Source: a virus
Length of the DNA: 28,413 nt
Virus record (IMG/VR): IMGVR_UViG_3300048837_000290
Location: 1 to 28,413 of that record
Direction: 5' to 3' (one strand)
This document shows, piece after piece, positions 1,091 through 20,779 of the stretch. The position numbers and the translations under genes were made by a program. Position 1 is the stretch's first letter. Each line of letters starts with the position of its first letter. The notes beneath the pieces are model-generated. The model was not told the origin of the DNA. It did not search any database and was given only the letters and a program-made list of their open reading frames with translations.

Positions 1091-1540
1091 TTAAGCTGCC
1101 CCCAAATCAGTCCAACCTGCCGGGTAAGCAGATGGGGACCATACGTTATTGTTGATAGATGATTCATAAAGCCTTCCGTTGTAAGTCACTTTATCCCCTT
1201 TATTAAATGGATTGTTTGATTCTGGTTGTGTCCATTCAGGAATAACTCCAGGGGCAGTTTTAACAACCCATAGATTAGGTGTGATGTCTGGGGTCCAATC
1301 TGCTTGTGTAACGTGCGCCAACGTGCATTTGTAAATCTTATCGTTATATCTTCTTAAAGTCCCCTTATTTACCATTTTTTCAGTGATATCTTCTCCTACC
1401 ACCCATGGCTGAAACAAATCAGTAACTGCGTTAAGCTCATCGTCAGAAAGTTCGTCAGCAAGGACCATCTTGCCTACAACAATGCGGCCCATATCTTCAA
1501 GCAATTTTTTAACTTGATTCGTTGTTACATTTATTCTCAT
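1091..1540 (-). CDS. Tail-tip protein with two CBM5/12-like carbohydrate-binding modules
   Basis: Product of 149 residues. After an N-terminal ~60 residues of unknown fold there are two short modules of the chitin-binding type 3 / CBM5-12 style. The first is RYNDKIYKCTLAHVTQADWT followed by P..TP.LW (about residues 64-92). The second is KGDKVTYNGRLYESSINNN followed by W.P..YP.GW (about residues 114-146). In phages such modules occur at the end of the tail gene block on receptor-binding or fibre-associated proteins, where they may bind cell-surface glycans. The start overlaps the stop of the preceding gene (ATGA at 1537-1540), so the two are probably translated together. The binding target cannot be read from sequence. 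Confidence 0.65.
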   Translation of the reverse strand: MRINVTTNQVKKLLEDMGRIVVGKMVLADELSDDELNAVTDLFQPWVVGEDITEKMVNKGTLRRYNDKIYKCTLAHVTQADWTPDITPNLWVVKTAPGVIPEWTQPESNNPFNKGDKVTYNGRLYESSINNNVWSPSAYPAGWTDLGAA

Positions 1541-2034
1541 AGTGGCACCTCAATTGCTGTTATAATCAACTGTTTGGACTTAACCTCTACCCGTATCGGA
1601 CCCGGGGCATCGGCAGTTATCTCCAGCGTAGCAACATAATCAACAGGCTCTACAGCATGGACAGTTTCATTTACTGAAAAATAAACCGTTTCTTGGTCGG
1701 TATACGTTACCGTTGCATGAGTTATCCCGTCCGCTGGAATTATCCAAGTGTCTGATGATAAAGTATCAAGTACAATGGAATCAAATAAATCTTGTGCTTC
1801 CTTTGCGGCCTTTTGATCAGAGCCAAAAGCAGTTAAACTCCAAGCCCCTCCGCTGTATGTATACCATCTCCCTGAAAAGTCTTCTGGGATATTATCCACG
1901 ACATACGCCGTGAATTTATCAGGAGTACACCAAGGTGCATTAAAAGATGCACCGGACAGACCGCTTGAAGTTACTGCCAAATTGTTACCAACAAAAACTA
2001 CTTCATTTGACGATATTTCTACGATAATTATCAT
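1537..2034 (-). CDS. Unknown tail-region protein with a C-terminal Ig-like segment
   Basis: Product of 165 residues. The N-terminal ~70 residues are unrecognised and contain aromatic-rich stretches (RWYTYSGGAWSLTAFGS) reminiscent of small phage tail-fibre accessory proteins. The C-terminal part is beta-rich: IPADGITHATVTYTDQETVYF and the following strands resemble a bacterial Ig-like (BIG) domain, common on phage tail surfaces. It lies 4 bases after the putative fibre gene and overlaps the next gene by 4 bases, so it probably belongs to the host-recognition group. Functional assignment stops there. Confidence 0.55.
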   Translation of the reverse strand: MIIIVEISSNEVVFVGNNLAVTSSGLSGASFNAPWCTPDKFTAYVVDNIPEDFSGRWYTYSGGAWSLTAFGSDQKAAKEAQDLFDSIVLDTLSSDTWIIPADGITHATVTYTDQETVYFSVNETVHAVEPVDYVATLEITADAPGPIRVEVKSKQLIITAIEVPL

Positions 2035-2038
2035 AATG

Positions 2039-3796
2039 TTATCCTATATCTACATATTGCGCTGCTAAATAAGTTGTGTCTGTGTCTTTGTATACCAACA
2101 TGGCTCCATTTTCCGACAAAACACTGTTGCATAGTAAGGTGCCTGATGTTGATGTCATACCAATATCAATACTTGATTCTATTTGTAAAATGCAATCTTT
2201 TGAAGATGAAGCTCCAACAACTTTAAAAGTTAGGATACAATCGCCATAGCCATAAGCATTATAACTAAATAAAATGGTGTCTGTGTTGATAAGCCTGGCG
2301 GAGTTAGGTGTGAAGTAAGCATGTTGAGGTAAATCTATAATAGCAACCTTCTTTTTTACAAATGTCGTCCCGTTAAAATATAACAAATAAATTGCAATTC
2401 TGTAATTCTGATAGTCATCTGTTGCAAGACAAATAGCAACAGAATAGTTTCCGTCTATGGATACAATGGTGTTGAACGAAGATACGGCTGCGTTCACAAC
2501 AAATGCTGCGGTGGAGGTTAGCGTAGTCCCAGACCACGTTACTTTTCTTATGTAGTAGGCACTTGATTCTATATAGCCTACTAAAATTGAGGCAGAAGAA
2601 GAGCTCCCTGATATTAAACACGCGGATGGATATAAAATAGATGATGTACCAGAAACAGCAGTTGCAGCAGTATTACTGGATATTACAGAGCCGTTCCAGT
2701 TTAATACTTGATAATATAGGTCCGTTGATGACAGATAATAGTATACGAATATTCTGCCAGTAGTATCACTTTCGTTTATTGATATAACAGATACTTTTGA
2801 TATTGTAGCTGCATCTGCAAATTCGTAAGTATGTGTGCTTGTTAATGTGTCTATGCCGTCATATGTTATTGCAGTGCATTTCCCGTCATTATCAACATCG
2901 CCATATGCTATTATTGCGGTTGTGTCAGACATACGGCATACTGATATCTGGCTCGCATATGTTGTATCAAATTCTAGAATATCAGCCACTTCAATTGATG
3001 CCCCGGAGTATGTCAAAACAGCGCAAAACCCGTCACTGTCGGCCCCTTGCCATGCTACGAAAACTTCGGTTTCTGTAAGCTTACATGTATCAAGATGGTC
3101 TATAGTAGCATTGCTATTACATATCGTTTTAATCCGGTTCATCAGCAAATCAGCACCACTTGACGCCTGCCATACTCCAGCCGCCGTGGAATTATCGGTA
3201 AGGCTTATTCTGCCTTGACCATACGCGGAAATGGAACAAATAAAATTCCCTGACGAGTCTTTTACGCCAAGCCTATATGCCCCTTTGTTAAAAAAAACAA
3301 AAGTATCTTTGCTTTTCTGAAAAACTCTGGCATCTGGCAGGACCGCAAACTTGTCGGCAGCTGTTATTGTGATAACTTGTATTTGTTTTGAAGCGGCAGT
3401 TAATGTGATATCAACAGCGGAGCTTATAGTATCAGCACCGGTATTACCAAATGTCTCTCTCCAATATGTCCCATCATCTTCAGCCGGAGTGTTGCCTGTG
3501 TTAGAACCCTGTTGACTGGTGTACATCCTGTAATTATAATTCGGATCGAGGACTTGATTCCCAGCCGAATACGTTGTCCCAGCGGCATAAATACTCACAT
3601 TTGCAGTTGCACCGGCAATATTTGCTGAAAACGTATTAATTTCTACTGCAAGTTCGTCAATAAACGTGTTTATATCGTCAGGTAGGTTCACAGAGAAATC
3701 AACCCAAGCTTGCACGTTTGTATCAAAATCATCAATGGTCTGAGTGTCTTTATTTGGTTTTATCCCTGAAAAAGGCGTTAAATCATTTATAGTCAT
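2039..3796 (-). CDS. Putative tail fibre or host-recognition protein with beta-repeats
   Basis: Product of 585 residues. The N-terminal ~65 residues are helical and could form a trimeric stalk (VDFSVNLPDDINTFIDELA and on). A carbohydrate-binding-like module follows at about residues 70-116 (YAAGTTYSAGNQVLDPNYNY, then NTGNTPAEDDGTYW). From about residue 215 to the end there are repeated units of 40-60 residues with alternating short beta strands and recurrent hydrophobic-Ala-Tyr cores (VFVAWQGADSDGFCAVLTY; AIIAYGDVDNDGKCTAITY; ILVGYIESSAYYIRKVTW), which suggests a beta-propeller. The start overlaps the stop of the preceding gene (TAATG). Its place after the tape measure and before lysis fits an adhesin. 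The propeller reading is inference from repeat spacing. Confidence 0.6.
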   Translation of the reverse strand: MTINDLTPFSGIKPNKDTQTIDDFDTNVQAWVDFSVNLPDDINTFIDELAVEINTFSANIAGATANVSIYAAGTTYSAGNQVLDPNYNYRMYTSQQGSNTGNTPAEDDGTYWRETFGNTGADTISSAVDITLTAASKQIQVITITAADKFAVLPDARVFQKSKDTFVFFNKGAYRLGVKDSSGNFICSISAYGQGRISLTDNSTAAGVWQASSGADLLMNRIKTICNSNATIDHLDTCKLTETEVFVAWQGADSDGFCAVLTYSGASIEVADILEFDTTYASQISVCRMSDTTAIIAYGDVDNDGKCTAITYDGIDTLTSTHTYEFADAATISKVSVISINESDTTGRIFVYYYLSSTDLYYQVLNWNGSVISSNTAATAVSGTSSILYPSACLISGSSSSASILVGYIESSAYYIRKVTWSGTTLTSTAAFVVNAAVSSFNTIVSIDGNYSVAICLATDDYQNYRIAIYLLYFNGTTFVKKKVAIIDLPQHAYFTPNSARLINTDTILFSYNAYGYGDCILTFKVVGASSSKDCILQIESSIDIGMTSTSGTLLCNSVLSENGAMLVYKDTDTTYLAAQYVDIG

Positions 3797-4704
3797 TATG
3801 TTGTACCTCTAATTTTTAGCGAGCATTTTGATATAGATGGCCCTGGAATAATTATATCAAACGATTCAAAAAACCCATAGATTCTTAAAGAATCATAATC
3901 AGAACCTGCATTATTCAAATCCCACAAACTCATAACACCGCTCACCTCTGCAAGTTTCCGTCTGACAATATCAACCATGCTATTTGTAATCCATAATTCC
4001 ACTTCTGCCCTATCAGCATAGTCCCCCTTGTTTAAATATGTACGACCCAGGCTATCGGTAGAATAAACTGAATAATCTTGTATACCGACACTTGCGCCAT
4101 ATTGTGTTTGGCCCAGGGTTATTTGCGATCCTATAACCATATCACCACATTCTGCGGCCCCTTGCCCAGTGGATATGCTAATAGAAAGAGACGCGTCTGA
4201 ATATTTAGGATATTCCCAAAATATTCTGTCCTTATAGTCATACTCTTCAAACAACCATACGTAATAACTTATGGAGGGAAGTGTTTTAAGACTTATTTCT
4301 TCTGTTTTTATAGTGCTTCCATTCCTGGATAGTGTCAATGTTACTGCTGATCCAGAAAGACCAAACAAACCAACAAAATCAGACTTTGCCGATCCTACGA
4401 CAACGTCTATATCAGTTGAGTCTGTGGTTGCTGAATTTATATACCCGTCAAACATGGCATGAATGTTTGATGTTCCTGTTTCAGTCCATTGTGTGGGAGA
4501 GTCTGGAGGGTAGTTTCCGGTATTAGCATCTGCAAGTGATTTGTATTCAACAACTGGAAACAGAGGGGTTGTTCCATCAGATTCAAAACTGACTTTAACC
4601 TCTGCGTCTGTAGCATATGTTGTCCCTGCCGCATATTCATCCTTTGATGAGGAAGAAACACTTGAAGATATTAATGTTATTGTTTTAGTTGGAGCAACCT
4701 TCAT
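3796..4704 (-). CDS. Unknown tail-tip protein encoded after the tape measure
   Basis: Product of 302 residues, overlapping the tape measure stop and the next start through TAATG junctions at both ends. The N-terminal ~80 residues carry the same module as the next gene product (YAAGTTYATDAEV, then NTGNYPPDSPTQWTETG at about residues 24-77). The middle and C-terminus are beta-rich with aromatic clusters (YYVWLFEEYDYKDRIFWEYP) and end in GPSISKCSLKIRGTT. In siphoviruses the gene after the tape measure usually encodes the distal tail protein or another baseplate hub component, so that is the most likely role, but I recognise no specific family. Confidence 0.55.
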   Translation of the reverse strand: MKVAPTKTITLISSSVSSSSKDEYAAGTTYATDAEVKVSFESDGTTPLFPVVEYKSLADANTGNYPPDSPTQWTETGTSNIHAMFDGYINSATTDSTDIDVVVGSAKSDFVGLFGLSGSAVTLTLSRNGSTIKTEEISLKTLPSISYYVWLFEEYDYKDRIFWEYPKYSDASLSISISTGQGAAECGDMVIGSQITLGQTQYGASVGIQDYSVYSTDSLGRTYLNKGDYADRAEVELWITNSMVDIVRRKLAEVSGVMSLWDLNNAGSDYDSLRIYGFFESFDIIIPGPSISKCSLKIRGTT

Positions 4705-7700
4705 TACGCTATCTCCCTGACTCTCATTTCTGTACCACCTTGAGTCACCCTATCCAAAAGTCTATTGGTCTGGATAGTCAACTTATTAACATTTCCACCA
4801 GTATCTCGTATCGAGATTAGGATGTCTTTGACTTCCCCTAAAACTTCCTTCACCTCTGTCATCTCTGAATCTGGGGTAATATGCTCAGTGCCGTGGAAAG
4901 TAGTTGGTAAAAAATAGCCAGAGTCTGGCCCTGTAACCGTCCCACCATTAGAAAAACCATATTCTGCTTTTAATGCTTCGGGATCTCCTCCCCACCCAAC
5001 AGCGTCAAAAATATTCGTGCCAAAAGCATCTTCAATCCTTGAACTATATGCATTAAATGTCTCTGAACTAATACCTCCTGTGGCTGATTTATAAACAACC
5101 TTGGCTGCTTCCATTAAAAGGGCATCTTCAGTTGTGGGCATTAATTGTTCATAAAAATTTGTGGTTGAGGGATCATCAGCTATGGCAGGTATAGACGGGC
5201 TGCTTGATGCCGGGGCGGATAATGGCGATATTTTAGCAGCATATTCAGATTGGAATTTACTGAATCCTGCATTCACAGCGTCTGATAATACGCCTATATA
5301 AGCTATTACAGATTCTTCCAAGCTCATCACAGAACTGTTTATTTCAGTTAAACGATCTATTTCGTCCTGATACCATGAATAATCAAGATCAGTTTTTGCA
5401 GAATTATATGCGGCTTCGAGCTCCTCAAGAGTTCCAAGATTTTCATCTACCCCATTTACTGCGTTCAATGTTGCTTCTAACGCGGCAGTTTGAGAAGTCA
5501 ATTCATCTAAGCTTAATTCTGCGGTTGATTTTTGCTCTCCCGCAATTTGCTCGGCCTCATTTAGTATTCGCATGACATACGCAAAATCATTTTGGTAGGC
5601 ACTAAAACTGCCACTTGTTTTTTTGCTTAACTCAAGGAAATCAGAGGTGAGTGTCGGCAAATCTTCCATGCCAGACTGTATTTCCGCAGCGTCACCGGAT
5701 TGTATTTTAGCCATTGCAGCCGCTAACTCAGCACCTACAAAAGCCATTTGTGTATCTGGATTAAGCTCAGAATTTGTAACAGACGAATATTTTAATTCTT
5801 TAATTGTTTCAAGCAGATTTTCAAATGACTCGACAGTCTTTTCAGCCTCAGCAGCAGTTTCATTCAATGCGTCAATTTCGTCGTTTAGTCCATTGATGTA
5901 ATTGTCTTTAGCTGTTGACAAAGCATCTTCCAGTATTGTTTGCTCTTCCTGTAAGGATTTTATATAAGCAGTTCTGGCAGCGGCTACTGCCGAGTCATAA
6001 GCAGCTTCTTTTTGTAAATCATATGCTTTATTTAAATCATCTAATGCGATACCTAAATTTTCTGCTGATTCCTTTTGCTCTTCGTACCAATCCGTTAAAT
6101 TTTTAAGTTCATATTCTAAATCTGATAAAGTATTTTGACTGATAATATCCTGGATAGCATCATTAAATGCGTCTATTTCAGCCTGTTTTGCTTTTTCTAT
6201 AGCCTCTGCTTGTAAATCATATGCTTCAGTAAGATCTTCTATGGAAAGACCTAATTCTTCCGCAGCCGCCTTTTGTTCCTCGAACCATGCATCCAACTCA
6301 ATAAGTTGTAAATCAGCATCTGTCAGGCTGTTTTCGTTTATGATATTCTGCCATTCTTCTGCTATTCCTTCCGCCAAAGCATTTTTTTGGGCGGTTACCC
6401 ATTCGTCTATAATTGCCAAATCCTCGGCAGCCGTTACCCCTAAATCTGCAAGGCTATCATTCCATTCTTGTGCCTGTTTATTGATATCGTATATTTCTTT
6501 TTCAAAGTCAGACAAGTTGATAGTGTCAATGCCTTCTTGGATTTGAGCGAAAATAGCATCTATTTGATCTTGTGTATCGTCTGTTGATGTCCCGCCGCTA
6601 CTGGAAGATGTCCCAGAACCACTTTCTAATGAAGATTCATAATCATCAATTGCGGATACCATCGCTTGAATTTGAGATGAAGCTTCAGATCCAAAAATAT
6701 CTTCGAGAACCGCAGAACTCATATTGCCCACAACATCAATAAATTCATCGAGGGCTGAAGATATCAAGTTTCCAGAGGAGTCTATAACATCCGGCAGTGC
6801 CTCTAATTGATCGAGTGCCGCGCTGACTTCCTTTTCCGAGGTTGAGAAATCACCAGACATTGTTTCTGTTACATCTTTATAATAATCTTCCTCGTCAATC
6901 CCAACCAATTTTGCCGCTGATTCAAAGTCCCCCCAATTCGTGATTTCAACTTTTCCACCATTTGCGTTGTAATACGCTAAATCTTTTTCAGATGCCCCTG
7001 CAAGTATGGAAGATTCAAGATTTGATAATGAAACAAGGCCATCTTCTAAAGCATCCGCCCAATAACTGCTTGATGCGGATCGTCCAAACAGCCTGTTAAA
7101 TATTTCATTTACCCTATCCTCAGAGTTTGAGATACCATTAACAATCGCATCATGGATATCATTTAAGCTCAACGAGCCTTCAAGTACTTTATTTTGATAA
7201 TAGTCTGAATCCGGACTGCGGCCTAAAATGTTTTCAAACTCTGATTTTACTACATAATTAGCTATTGCTTCTTGATACCCATCTTCATCAAACACCGAGG
7301 TTGTTACTGACTCATCTCCTCTAATCTGAGAGATCGACGGGGTATCCTTGAAAAAGTCAACAACTTCTTTCATAGAATTTAGGTAAGCTTCTGTGCTTTC
7401 CTCAGACCCTATAAGATCGCCCTGGGCAGATTCTATATCAGAAATGTTTTCGTACATTTGCTGAGTTGTTTTAGTGAACGTGTCTGCCAGGTCTTGGATC
7501 ACATTGTTGAGGTCGTCACCTTCAATGCCAAGTGCCACAAAAGCATCGACAGCATTTTCAAGTTCATCGGCTGTTACGCTATCGGCTGTGATTTCAGAAA
7601 ATAAATTCATGGCTTCGATGTTACTTATCTGCCACTCCTCAAATTTCTGAGATGTTGATAATTGCCCGTCAAGAGCCAATGTTACAATCCGCATTGCCTC

Positions 7701-18712: not shown

Positions 18713-20779
18713 TCAAAGCTCATCCAGCCGATAAAGCCGACCCGTTTCAGGATCAACCAAATCCTTAAACGTAACCTTTCCGGACTGGATCAACGCAAGC
18801 CGTTTCGGGCCAACAACGTTTTTTTGGAACTGCTCTCCCCGTGATTCAAACCAACTGGCATATTCTCCCTTGTGAGATCCCCAAGTCAGTATATTGCGCC
18901 CCCCGTCTCCAATGGGGATGTCAGGGCGCGTTGTCCATGGCCTGGCCACTTCTTCAAATTCGTCTATGTCTATGCCGAGTTCGCGGAATGTCACTGTGAC
19001 AGGGATTTTGACGCATCTACAATTACTTGACAAAACCCCGTCCACATGGTACATTCCACTTAAACATTGGAGATCATAAACATGCCCAAAAAACTTTCTT
19101 GTCTTGATAGAGACAACATCTGTCAACAGTACATCTCCGGCGTAAACTCTGGTAAAATCGCTAAAGAGTTTGGAATTAACACTAACATTGTCTTGGTTGT
19201 TATCAAAAATGCCGGTATCAAACCCCTTAATGTCAAGCCTCATACATTTGATTGCCTCGGAGATAAACTCCCCATCGAAGAGATTATATCTCTTTACGTT
19301 TCTGGGATCTCTGAAAAGGCTATTGCCGGAAAGTTTAAAGTTTCCAGAAACGTCATAGCCAGGCTTTTGACCAAAAATGGGATTGAGCGGAGGGGAAAAA
19401 CATGCGCCAACCGTCTCATGATGTCTAAGCGAAGCCGTGCCGAAAACGTCAGAAACACCATGGCCGCAAATAAAGCTGTCAGATGCAAGCCGCAGCCAAA
19501 AAAGAGGAGAGAGAAGACTGCCAAAACCATCCAAGTCAAGCCCGCTAACGTTGGCAATGGAGAGGTTGAACTGGTGCAAAAACTCAGATCGAAAGGATTC
19601 AAGGTCACCCCTCAAAAGGCTTTCAAACGTTATAACCTCGACATCGCCTTTGATGAATTCCCCATCGCCGTGGAGGTGTTCGGAGGAGGCTGGCACACTT
19701 GTGGAAACCACGCCAGGCGTTTTAGAGAACGATTTGATGACATTTGCAATGCTGGAATCATTCCTGTTATTGTCTGGACCTCCAAAAATTACCCTATCAG
19801 CGACGGGATTGTGGAATATCTTGTCTCCCTTACGGATAGAATCAGCCGTGGAGAAACCTTTCCCTGTCAAGAACATGTGCTTTGGGGTAACGGTAAACCT
19901 TGCTCCGTTGGAAAGGACAAGCTCAAATACAATGCCTTCATAGGTGGCGACAAAAGCGGCGATCTTGTCAGGAGCAAAAACGGGAGTTTCAGCCGTCAAG
20001 CAATTGGGATGTAGCGGTATCGGTGGGCCCTCGCCAAGTTTATATTGATTGCCGTCATTGCAAGCACACCTGATGCAGGTCCCGGTTCCAGTCCGCATAT
20101 TGCTATTCTCCAAAACGCTCGACCACTTCCATTTTTTTACAATATCTGAATTAGCAGCCATCACAGCGCTCATAGCGGACACGTTAGCAGTCTGGACGAA
20201 AGTTCTTGCCAGTGTAACGGCTTCTTTACGGGTAAAATCTTTCATATGGCCCATGATGCTATCAACGAGCCCAGGATATCCTTTCCCCTGCAACATCCCC
20301 GCTCCGAGATCCTCAAGTAGCCCTTTCTGAACAGTTGCATCAAAGGACCGGTTCACCCAATCGCTTAAAACGTACCCACCCATGGGAGTTGTTTCAAAAA
20401 AAGACTTAAACTGTTCCGGAGATAAAGCAACGTTGTTAAATCCAGGAAGCTTACCACCAACGCTCATTGTCTGGCTATGATAGTTCGCAGATTCTGCCCC
20501 GGCCTGGCTCGCAAGGCTGGATATCTCACTTGTTACCTGTTCTCTGATGCCTGCTGTCAATGACTCAAGCTCTTTTATCAAATCTTGTCGTCTTAGCTGC
20601 TCCCATCTCCGCATCCGTTTGCTGGGATTTGACAAAATGTCATACGCGGCTTTTTCAATGGATTTCATTGCTGTTTTTAATGCAGCGATTTCCATCTTGT
20701 CGATATTGTACCGCCATATTATCTGCCGAGCCGTTTGGTATAACTCCATAAGCTCGTCCGGTTTGATATTTTTATCCAT
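18713..20779 (-). CDS. MuF / SPP1 gp7-like head morphogenesis protein interrupted by an intein
   Basis: Precursor of 688 residues; splicing would give 361 (259 + 102). MuF-type minor head proteins bind the portal and a few copies are packaged in the head. The N-extein is helical, ending in the family core CIRCACNDGNQYKLGEGPP then PLHPN. The C-extein begins CRCVKIPVTVTF and ends with the family-like FKDLVDPETGRLYRLDEL. The hallmark HPNCRC motif is split by the intein exactly between Asn259 and Cys587. It follows the portal gene by 6 bases, the usual portal-MuF-scaffold-capsid order. The ribosome binding site is weak, so translation may be coupled to the portal gene. Loss of splicing would destroy the conserved motif, so the intein must be active if the phage is viable. 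Confidence 0.9.
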   Translation of the reverse strand: MDKNIKPDELMELYQTARQIIWRYNIDKMEIAALKTAMKSIEKAAYDILSNPSKRMRRWEQLRRQDLIKELESLTAGIREQVTSEISSLASQAGAESANYHSQTMSVGGKLPGFNNVALSPEQFKSFFETTPMGGYVLSDWVNRSFDATVQKGLLEDLGAGMLQGKGYPGLVDSIMGHMKDFTRKEAVTLARTFVQTANVSAMSAVMAANSDIVKKWKWSSVLENSNMRTGTGTCIRCACNDGNQYKLGEGPPIPLHPNCLTAETPVFAPDKIAAFVATYEGIVFELVLSNGARFTVTPKHMFLTGKGFSTADSIRKGDKIFHNPVADRVIFGGPDNNRNDSSIANVIKSFSKTPGVVSTSVPASSEHLHGDGEFIKGDVEVITFESLLRGDLESFRSEFLHQFNLSIANVSGLDLDGFGSLLSPLFWLRLASDSFICGHGVSDVFGTASLRHHETVGACFSPPLNPIFGQKPGYDVSGNFKLSGNSLFRDPRNVKRYNLFDGEFISEAIKCMRLDIKGFDTGIFDNNQDNVSVNSKLFSDFTRVYAGDVLLTDVVSIKTRKFFGHVYDLQCLSGMYHVDGVLSSNCRCVKIPVTVTFRELGIDIDEFEEVARPWTTRPDIPIGDGGRNILTWGSHKGEYASWFESRGEQFQKNVVGPKRLALIQSGKVTFKDLVDPETGRLYRLDEL
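19022..20002 (-). mobile_element. Intein (327 residues) in the MuF gene
   Basis: Intein residues 260-586 of the precursor. Block A is CLTAETPVFAPDK with catalytic Cys260. Block B is ARFTVTPKHMFLT with the TxxH pair Thr298 and His301. Block F is HVYDLQCLSGMYHVDG with Asp569 and His578. Block G ends VLSSN followed by Cys587, so the C-terminal Asn586 and the +1 Cys nucleophile are present. The penultimate residue is Ser585 instead of the usual His, a substitution known in some active inteins. The central ~220 residues (about 325-545) contain no LAGLIDADG or HNH motif. Instead, the opposite strand of this stretch encodes a homing endonuclease. The insertion at the most conserved spot of the host protein is typical of inteins. 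Confidence 0.92.
19027..19055 (+). promoter_or_regulatory. Putative promoter for the antisense endonuclease gene
   Basis: Plus-strand TTGACA (19027-19032), a 17-base spacer and TACATT (19050-19055; 4 of 6 consensus bases) lie inside the sequence coding for the intein's C-terminal block. A start near 19062 would put a GGAG ribosome binding site (19069-19072) and the ATG (19082) right behind it. Confidence 0.45.
19082..20014 (+). CDS. Vsr-like (EDxHD/DUF559-type) homing endonuclease encoded antisense to the intein
   Basis: Product of 310 residues. The ATG at 19082 has GGAG 9 bases upstream; an in-frame TTG at 19067 overlaps that site and is unlikely. Two resolvase-like helix-turn-helix motifs lie at about residues 8-45 (SGKIAKEFGINTNIVLVVIK) and 63-101 (SEKAIAGKFKVSRNVIARLL), followed by a basic linker (105-157). 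A Vsr/DUF559-like nuclease core spans 158-250: Glu161/163, YNLDIAF with Asp187, IAVEVFGGGWH with Glu198, Trp204 and His205, His210, Asp219/220, and GIIPVIVW. This matches the EDxHD homing endonuclease group related to Vsr and I-Bth0305I. The gene lies codon-for-codon opposite the intein (endonuclease residue + precursor residue = 567). Its TAG stop is the complement of the MuF Leu256 codon. It would cut intein-free MuF alleles to spread the intein; that is inference. Confidence 0.82.
   Translation: MPKKLSCLDRDNICQQYISGVNSGKIAKEFGINTNIVLVVIKNAGIKPLNVKPHTFDCLGDKLPIEEIISLYVSGISEKAIAGKFKVSRNVIARLLTKNGIERRGKTCANRLMMSKRSRAENVRNTMAANKAVRCKPQPKKRREKTAKTIQVKPANVGNGEVELVQKLRSKGFKVTPQKAFKRYNLDIAFDEFPIAVEVFGGGWHTCGNHARRFRERFDDICNAGIIPVIVWTSKNYPISDGIVEYLVSLTDRISRGETFPCQEHVLWGNGKPCSVGKDKLKYNAFIGGDKSGDLVRSKNGSFSRQAIGM

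Follow-up and report, generated by a model that had tools for sequence, protein, structure and literature searches.

An intein in a phage MuF head gene, with a predicted Vsr-like homing endonuclease gene on the opposite strand

Introduction

Can a single stretch of phage DNA encode a protein-splicing element on one strand and, codon upon codon, a nuclease on the other? The question is raised by a viral sequence of 28,413 nucleotides (IMG/VR record IMGVR_UViG_3300048837_000290; "the window" here means this whole stretch). A sequence-only reading had noticed that an endonuclease frame lying opposite an intein avoids every codon that would put a stop into the intein. That observation is correct. 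It understates, however, what the locus holds.

The head gene and its intein

The minus strand carries, at 18713..20779, a 688-residue precursor of a MuF/SPP1 gp7-like minor head protein, assigned by Pfam and by its relatives, which bear MuF or head morphogenesis annotations. The two Pfam matches in the precursor, Phage_Mu_F (E 0.0028) and Intein_splicing (E 3.5e-7), both fall under the curated cut-offs. Precursor residues 260-586 (19022..20002, minus strand) form an intein of 327 residues at the site HPN|C...SSN|CRC. This placement rests on the located junctions, the site in relatives, a structural model and Foldseek; relatives in which both junctions could be located carry the intein at the same MuF site.

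The intein has the expected hallmarks: C260, a block B containing T39-P-K-H42, and the junction N586|C587. The block B region, RFTVTPKHMFLTGKGF (19850..19897, minus strand), with T39, H42, T46 and G49 fixed, lies opposite the C-terminal part of the endonuclease. The model is confident for intein residues 1-126 (apart from the short stretch 69-75) and 289-327. Its top Foldseek matches are inteins, the best at E 1.6e-3, and the fold is that of a HINT domain. Between these parts, residues 130-288 (19139..19615, minus strand) make a low-confidence linker, with pLDDT below 50. No in-frame endonuclease domain was found inside the intein polypeptide, its centre having this low pLDDT and no Pfam match to a nuclease.

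The protein on the other strand

The endonuclease gene occupies 19082..20014 on the plus strand and encodes 310 residues followed by a TAG stop. It runs antisense to precursor residues 566 (at its start) to 256 (at its stop), and so lies behind 307 of the 327 intein residues together with four N-extein codons. In the window, the stop codon is reached within the N-extein, four codons in; among the 35 clusters measured, 12 have theirs one codon to the inside of Cys1.

The AlphaFold2 model of this protein (mean pLDDT 87.7, pTM 0.64) has two helix-turn-helix (HTH) units, followed by a PD-(D/E)XK-like domain. The HTH units comprise residues 10-43 (19109..19210), seen in the model, and residues 65-98 (19274..19375), seen in the model and matched by HTH_7 at E 3.5e-4. 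The Vsr-like nuclease domain, residues 159-255 (19556..19846), contains E161, D187 and E198 and is matched by MTES_1575 at E 7.6e-4, the nuclease-family matches in the window being under the curated cut-offs. Among 56 relatives, HTH_7 was found in 36, MTES_1575 in 36, and DUF559 in 6. Foldseek against the PDB gave no match to the endonuclease model at E 0.001; the matches returned include Vsr (1cw0, probability 1.00, E 0.031) and I-Bth0305I (3r3p, probability 0.97, E 0.1).

The core has the conserved acidic residues of a PD-(D/E)XK nuclease. Over 58 clusters made at 70% identity, D187 is kept in 58, E198 in 57, and E161 in 55. The Vsr-like homing endonucleases have an EDxHD motif. The window protein has VEVFGGGWH; after E198, no His column is found among the columns that are invariant or 90% conserved. 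By Pfam, by model and by fold match, then, the antisense frame is a predicted tandem-HTH, Vsr-like nuclease. The models place its nuclease core opposite the folded N-terminal splicing domain, and its HTH part opposite the disordered linker.

Codon register and forbidden codons

The two proteins are read codon on codon, with endonuclease residue and precursor residue summing to 567, as the sequence-only reading had stated and as was checked at three codons. In this register TTA, CTA and TCA are forbidden to the endonuclease, and its 18 Leu and 19 Ser codons include none of them, just as had been counted. These codons are not rare in the phage: in its minus-strand genes TTA and CTA make up 29.9% of Leu codons, and TCA 30.8% of Ser codons. 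From this usage about ten would be expected in the window endonuclease. Their absence has P = 1.5e-6 under the phage's own codon use, and 10^-5.09 when the usage is taken from fewer, local codons (3093), so that the earlier crude estimate of about 2e-5 was of the right order and slightly conservative.

This number must, of course, be read with care. The "avoidance" of the three codons and the openness of the precursor frame are arithmetically one fact, so the P value alone is no proof that a real endonuclease exists. Independent evidence was therefore sought.

Codon bias in the phages had been named as a possible cause, and it fails as one. Over 84 loci, 471 forbidden codons were expected from the codon use of each locus and none was seen; over 58 clusters the figures are 330 and none. 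The endonuclease of Acinetobacter phage P1068 (L015), which stands free of any intein, has 12 forbidden codons where 12.1 are expected. Codon bias is ruled out by these two results.

Distribution of the nested pair

With the endonuclease as query, tblastn matched 118 phage records at an E value no higher than 0.01. In 19 annotated phage regions, 17 matches lie antisense to one long head-gene CDS, one (P1068) is free-standing, and one, in Caulobacter phage J4, is unrelated; J4 was set aside as an HTH-only match. Only in P1068 is the endonuclease annotated, one of 18 family phage regions. The family as a whole lacks conserved stretches on which a profile scan could rest, and subfamily alignments were therefore used. 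Searching IMG/VR with a subfamily profile brought in 141 relatives, and 80 of these were retained. The scan patterns were residues of the endonuclease, an open second strand not being demanded. A genome scan gave one relative, in Atlantibacter; it is nested and has no forbidden codons.

The codon-aligned antisense frame is free of stops in 102 of 103 entries, the other two antisense frames having totals of 1710 and 804. In all 85 distinct nested loci, which cover 21,696 codons, the intein frame has no stop; the two remaining antisense frames have 1415 and 649. P1068 was left out of all nested counts. A fragment (L023) and a copy of the window (L003) were dropped before the statistics on codons, start signals, promoters and intein residues were made. 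Related loci are not independent, and the versions based on the 58 clusters reduce kinship without removing it.

A scan from the intein side, biased towards close relatives and with the HGD motif among its patterns, matched 478 relatives, of which 80 were kept, representing 66 distinct loci. All 66 have the endonuclease behind an intein frame without stops; no family intein lacking the endonuclease was found among them. In 53 of these loci no stop interrupts the endonuclease core; in 13 it is broken.

Homologues with frequent stops on one strand would have spoken against selection on both. Stops do occur, on the endonuclease strand only (4 of 103 entries; the 13 of 66 intein-side loci), and the intein strand has none in any nested locus. 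This implies that the intein frame is strictly kept, while in some lineages the endonuclease decays, a fate common to homing genes. The two closest relatives, L001 (371-1300) and L002 (4001-4930), have in common a single in-frame stop in the endonuclease, with the intein frame open.

Putative expression signals behind splicing motifs

Candidate expression signals of the nested gene lie behind splicing motifs of the intein. Block F (GHVYDLQ, 19067..19087, minus strand) contains the His codon CAT (19082-19084) whose complement is the ATG of the endonuclease. A putative Shine-Dalgarno sequence, GGAG (19069..19072, plus strand), lies behind the next block F codons, and is proposed from the upstream sequence and family statistics. 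A putative promoter, TTGACA-17-TACATT with an upstream TG (19027..19055, plus strand; 10 of 12 matches), lies antisense to block G (with the +1 residue, HVDGVLSSN|C, 19019..19048, minus strand).

Codon choice is biased towards these signals. In the 65 of 84 loci that have an H-type block F, the His codon is CAT in 59, against 25.4 expected; among the 32 loci with GC of 55% or more it is CAT in 27, against 9.1; and in 41 clusters it is CAT in 38, against 15.3 +- 2.9. As a control, 49 other His codons in the C-extein are CAT in 16 cases, against 17.7 expected. The block F Leu codon is CTC in 37 of 49 loci (10.1 expected) and in 30 of 37 clusters (7.7 expected), and Shine-Dalgarno matches of five or more number 31, against 8.3. 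Over 61 loci the mean promoter score is 8.90, against 5.50 in synonymous resampling (sd of the mean 0.29), although in several loci, including the Gordonia Vivi2-type phages, the score is not above its own null. Loci without an H-type block F were left out of the start-signal, promoter and block F cluster counts. As these are 19 of the 84, the start arrangement is not universal, and such loci must start elsewhere.

Selection on both strands, and other explanations

An open frame opposite a conserved gene need not, of course, encode anything. The antisense frame might be a by-product, a mirror of the conserved intein from which no protein is made, and codon-aligned antisense frames do have few stops in GC-rich genomes: for the 28 loci with GC of at least 60% the expectation was just 47 forbidden codons. 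In the 26 loci with GC below 50%, however, 266 were expected and none was seen. Further, in pairs of loci (at 50-99% identity) the endonuclease strand is the more conserved in 155 of 155, and has more third-position than first-position changes in 153 of 155; in BLOSUM sums three pairs are slightly reversed, with the intein strand ahead. A frame with this pattern evolves as a protein gene. The nuclease and HTH families, the confident model, and the codon bias at the start and Shine-Dalgarno sites also stand against a by-product. Conservation and structure lead us to reject a mirror-frame artefact, and an origin without a protein product is extremely improbable.

The opposite case is that selection acts on the endonuclease alone as a protein, and that the intein strand is merely kept free of stops for the sake of the head protein. 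Identity on the intein strand is indeed lower everywhere, and intein residues 130-288 are modelled as disordered. This description is true of the linker, but not of block B or of the HGD motif (intein residues 111-113; 19664..19672, minus strand), which lies exactly opposite endonuclease residues 195-197, adjoining the catalytic E198. Intein residues here are fixed despite the synonymous freedom of the endonuclease: over 58 clusters, T46 is kept in 57 (10.8 expected), T39 in 56 (13.2), G49 in 58 (15.6), H42 in 58 (30.0), and in HGD the D in 57, the G (G112) in 57 (18.1) and the H in 54, against 18-21 expected for the motif. Since the modal residue was picked post hoc, the z values are inflated. 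Of the 66 intein-side loci, 64 retain HGD, among them all 13 whose endonuclease cores are broken. Selection for the endonuclease alone is accordingly quite improbable. It is also conceivable, though unlikely, that the endonuclease was once active and is now carried along by the overlap, or that its role is to regulate the head gene in antisense. The core stops in 13 of 66 relatives, and the one stop each in L001 and L002, would agree with this; but in the window the endonuclease is unbroken and retains D187 and E198, 53 of the 66 are free of core stops, and across the 58 clusters the catalytic residues vary little or not at all. Both frames are thus conserved and under selection at the protein level. 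The earlier proposal that selection keeps both strands open is supported, though the two are held unequally, the intein frame without exception in 85 loci and the endonuclease frame with stops in some.

A relative that probably left the intein

P1068 has a MuF gene without an intein, and beside it the endonuclease gene stands by itself (2914-3807). Such a gene might be taken for the ancestor of the nested ones; against this stands its placement in the tree, where it groups inside the nested relatives with support 0.997. That placement suggests a secondary escape from the nested state. Upstream of the P1068 endonuclease is an apparent remnant of block F (HVHSLM*), a weak hint only.

A second case, with an unrelated nuclease

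The IMG/VR relatives L001 and L024 also have an intein in the terminase gene TerL, inserted at the P-loop (HHN|SGK), with a 302-residue HNH_3 endonuclease antisense to it. In L001 the locus is at 3622-5292; in L024, TerL is at 640-2988 on the minus strand and the nuclease at 1971-2879 on the plus strand. Pectobacterium phages Taid (L110) and Ymer (L108) have the same TerL arrangement with an ORF of 232 residues, and Taid has 44.6% identity to L024 over 97% of the query. In these TerL loci another register is the open one, with no stops against 15 and 19, 11 and 11, and 12 and 11 in the alternatives. The TerL and MuF cases differ, then, in nuclease family, in host gene and in register.

Three further observations belong here. 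TTGACT-17-TATAAT and GGAG are found upstream of the TerL-antisense HNH_3 ORF. Pseudoalteromonas phage PHS3 (L107) has at 2459-3169 an HNH endonuclease, akin to that antisense to TerL, which stands alone beside a terminase gene. In Mycobacterium phage Murica (L111), a related HNH match at 1375-3183 lies on the strand of the annotated DNA methylase, a contrast in the sense orientation.

Comparison with known systems

The fractured genes that Dassa is said to have described in 2009 reportedly have split inteins, with a free endonuclease gene of the Vsr-like family between the halves, and the host gene itself is split. They resemble the present locus in pairing a Vsr-like nuclease with phage inteins; unlike theirs, the intein here is contiguous and dual-coded. 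With Vsr and the catalytic domain of I-Bth0305I the window protein shares the nuclease domain fold (probabilities 1.00 and 0.97). It differs from both in its low sequence identity to them (E 0.03-0.1), its tandem HTH units, and its position antisense to an intein.

In-frame mobile inteins are known from TerL of mycobacteriophages, where the endonuclease is a domain of the intein itself (PMC5050341). Like those, the present element has a HINT splicing domain, is inserted in an essential phage gene at a conserved position, and has a nuclease between the splicing blocks. Unlike those, in which the nuclease is in the same polypeptide, its nuclease is a separate gene on the opposite strand, and overlaps the splicing blocks themselves. 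The L2066 group I intron of Didymium (PMC9548176) has an antisense endonuclease gene with its own expression signals, and cleavage was shown. Here, too, a predicted endonuclease gene is nested antisense in a self-splicing element and has putative expression signals of its own. In Didymium, however, no protein lies opposite the gene, which is placed in a peripheral RNA segment; here the host element has protein-splicing motifs, and over the nested frame each strand codes, and must code, for protein.

Thus, in-frame intein endonucleases and antisense group I intron endonucleases are each known. No description of the protein-coding combination, an antisense endonuclease gene within an intein, was found in the literature covered, which includes passages of PMC6669764, PMC2988022, PMC12613952, PMC10448857 and PMC8966425, and has subscription journals and preprints outside its scope; in PMC3229294 the corresponding terms are absent.

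Proposed explanation

The reading that we prefer, with a probability of roughly 0.87, assigns a protein to each strand. The minus strand would encode a MuF head protein that splices out its intein. The plus strand would encode a tandem-HTH, Vsr-like nuclease, expressed from the promoter behind block G and translated from the Shine-Dalgarno sequence and ATG behind block F. Antisense transcription would make the nuclease, which would cut MuF genes that lack the intein, at the HPN|CRC site or close to it; repair would then copy the intein and the nuclease gene together, and splicing would spare the head protein. The intein frame would never be broken because the head protein needs it, and the endonuclease frame would break in some lineages, as is expected of homing genes after fixation. 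To judge from sequence and models, the nuclease probably spreads the intein.

Significance

Long antisense overlaps of two folded, conserved proteins have rarely been documented beyond doubt. Here, the overlap is conserved over scores of phage lineages, and there is a natural control in which it has been lost. Expression signals of one gene appear to sit inside conserved protein motifs of the other. The arrangement also hides the endonuclease gene from standard annotation.

We lean towards a broader view, with rather less assurance than for the window itself: that these loci represent a widespread class of mobile inteins, whose splicing protein and mobilising nuclease are encoded on opposite strands, folded domain facing folded domain. 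In this class splicing motifs would double as the promoter, ribosome-binding site and start codon of the nuclease gene. It would have had two or more origins, unrelated in nuclease, host gene and register, and it may make expression of the nuclease and of the head gene exclude one another in time. With it, the gain and loss of endonucleases by inteins becomes testable in a new arrangement.
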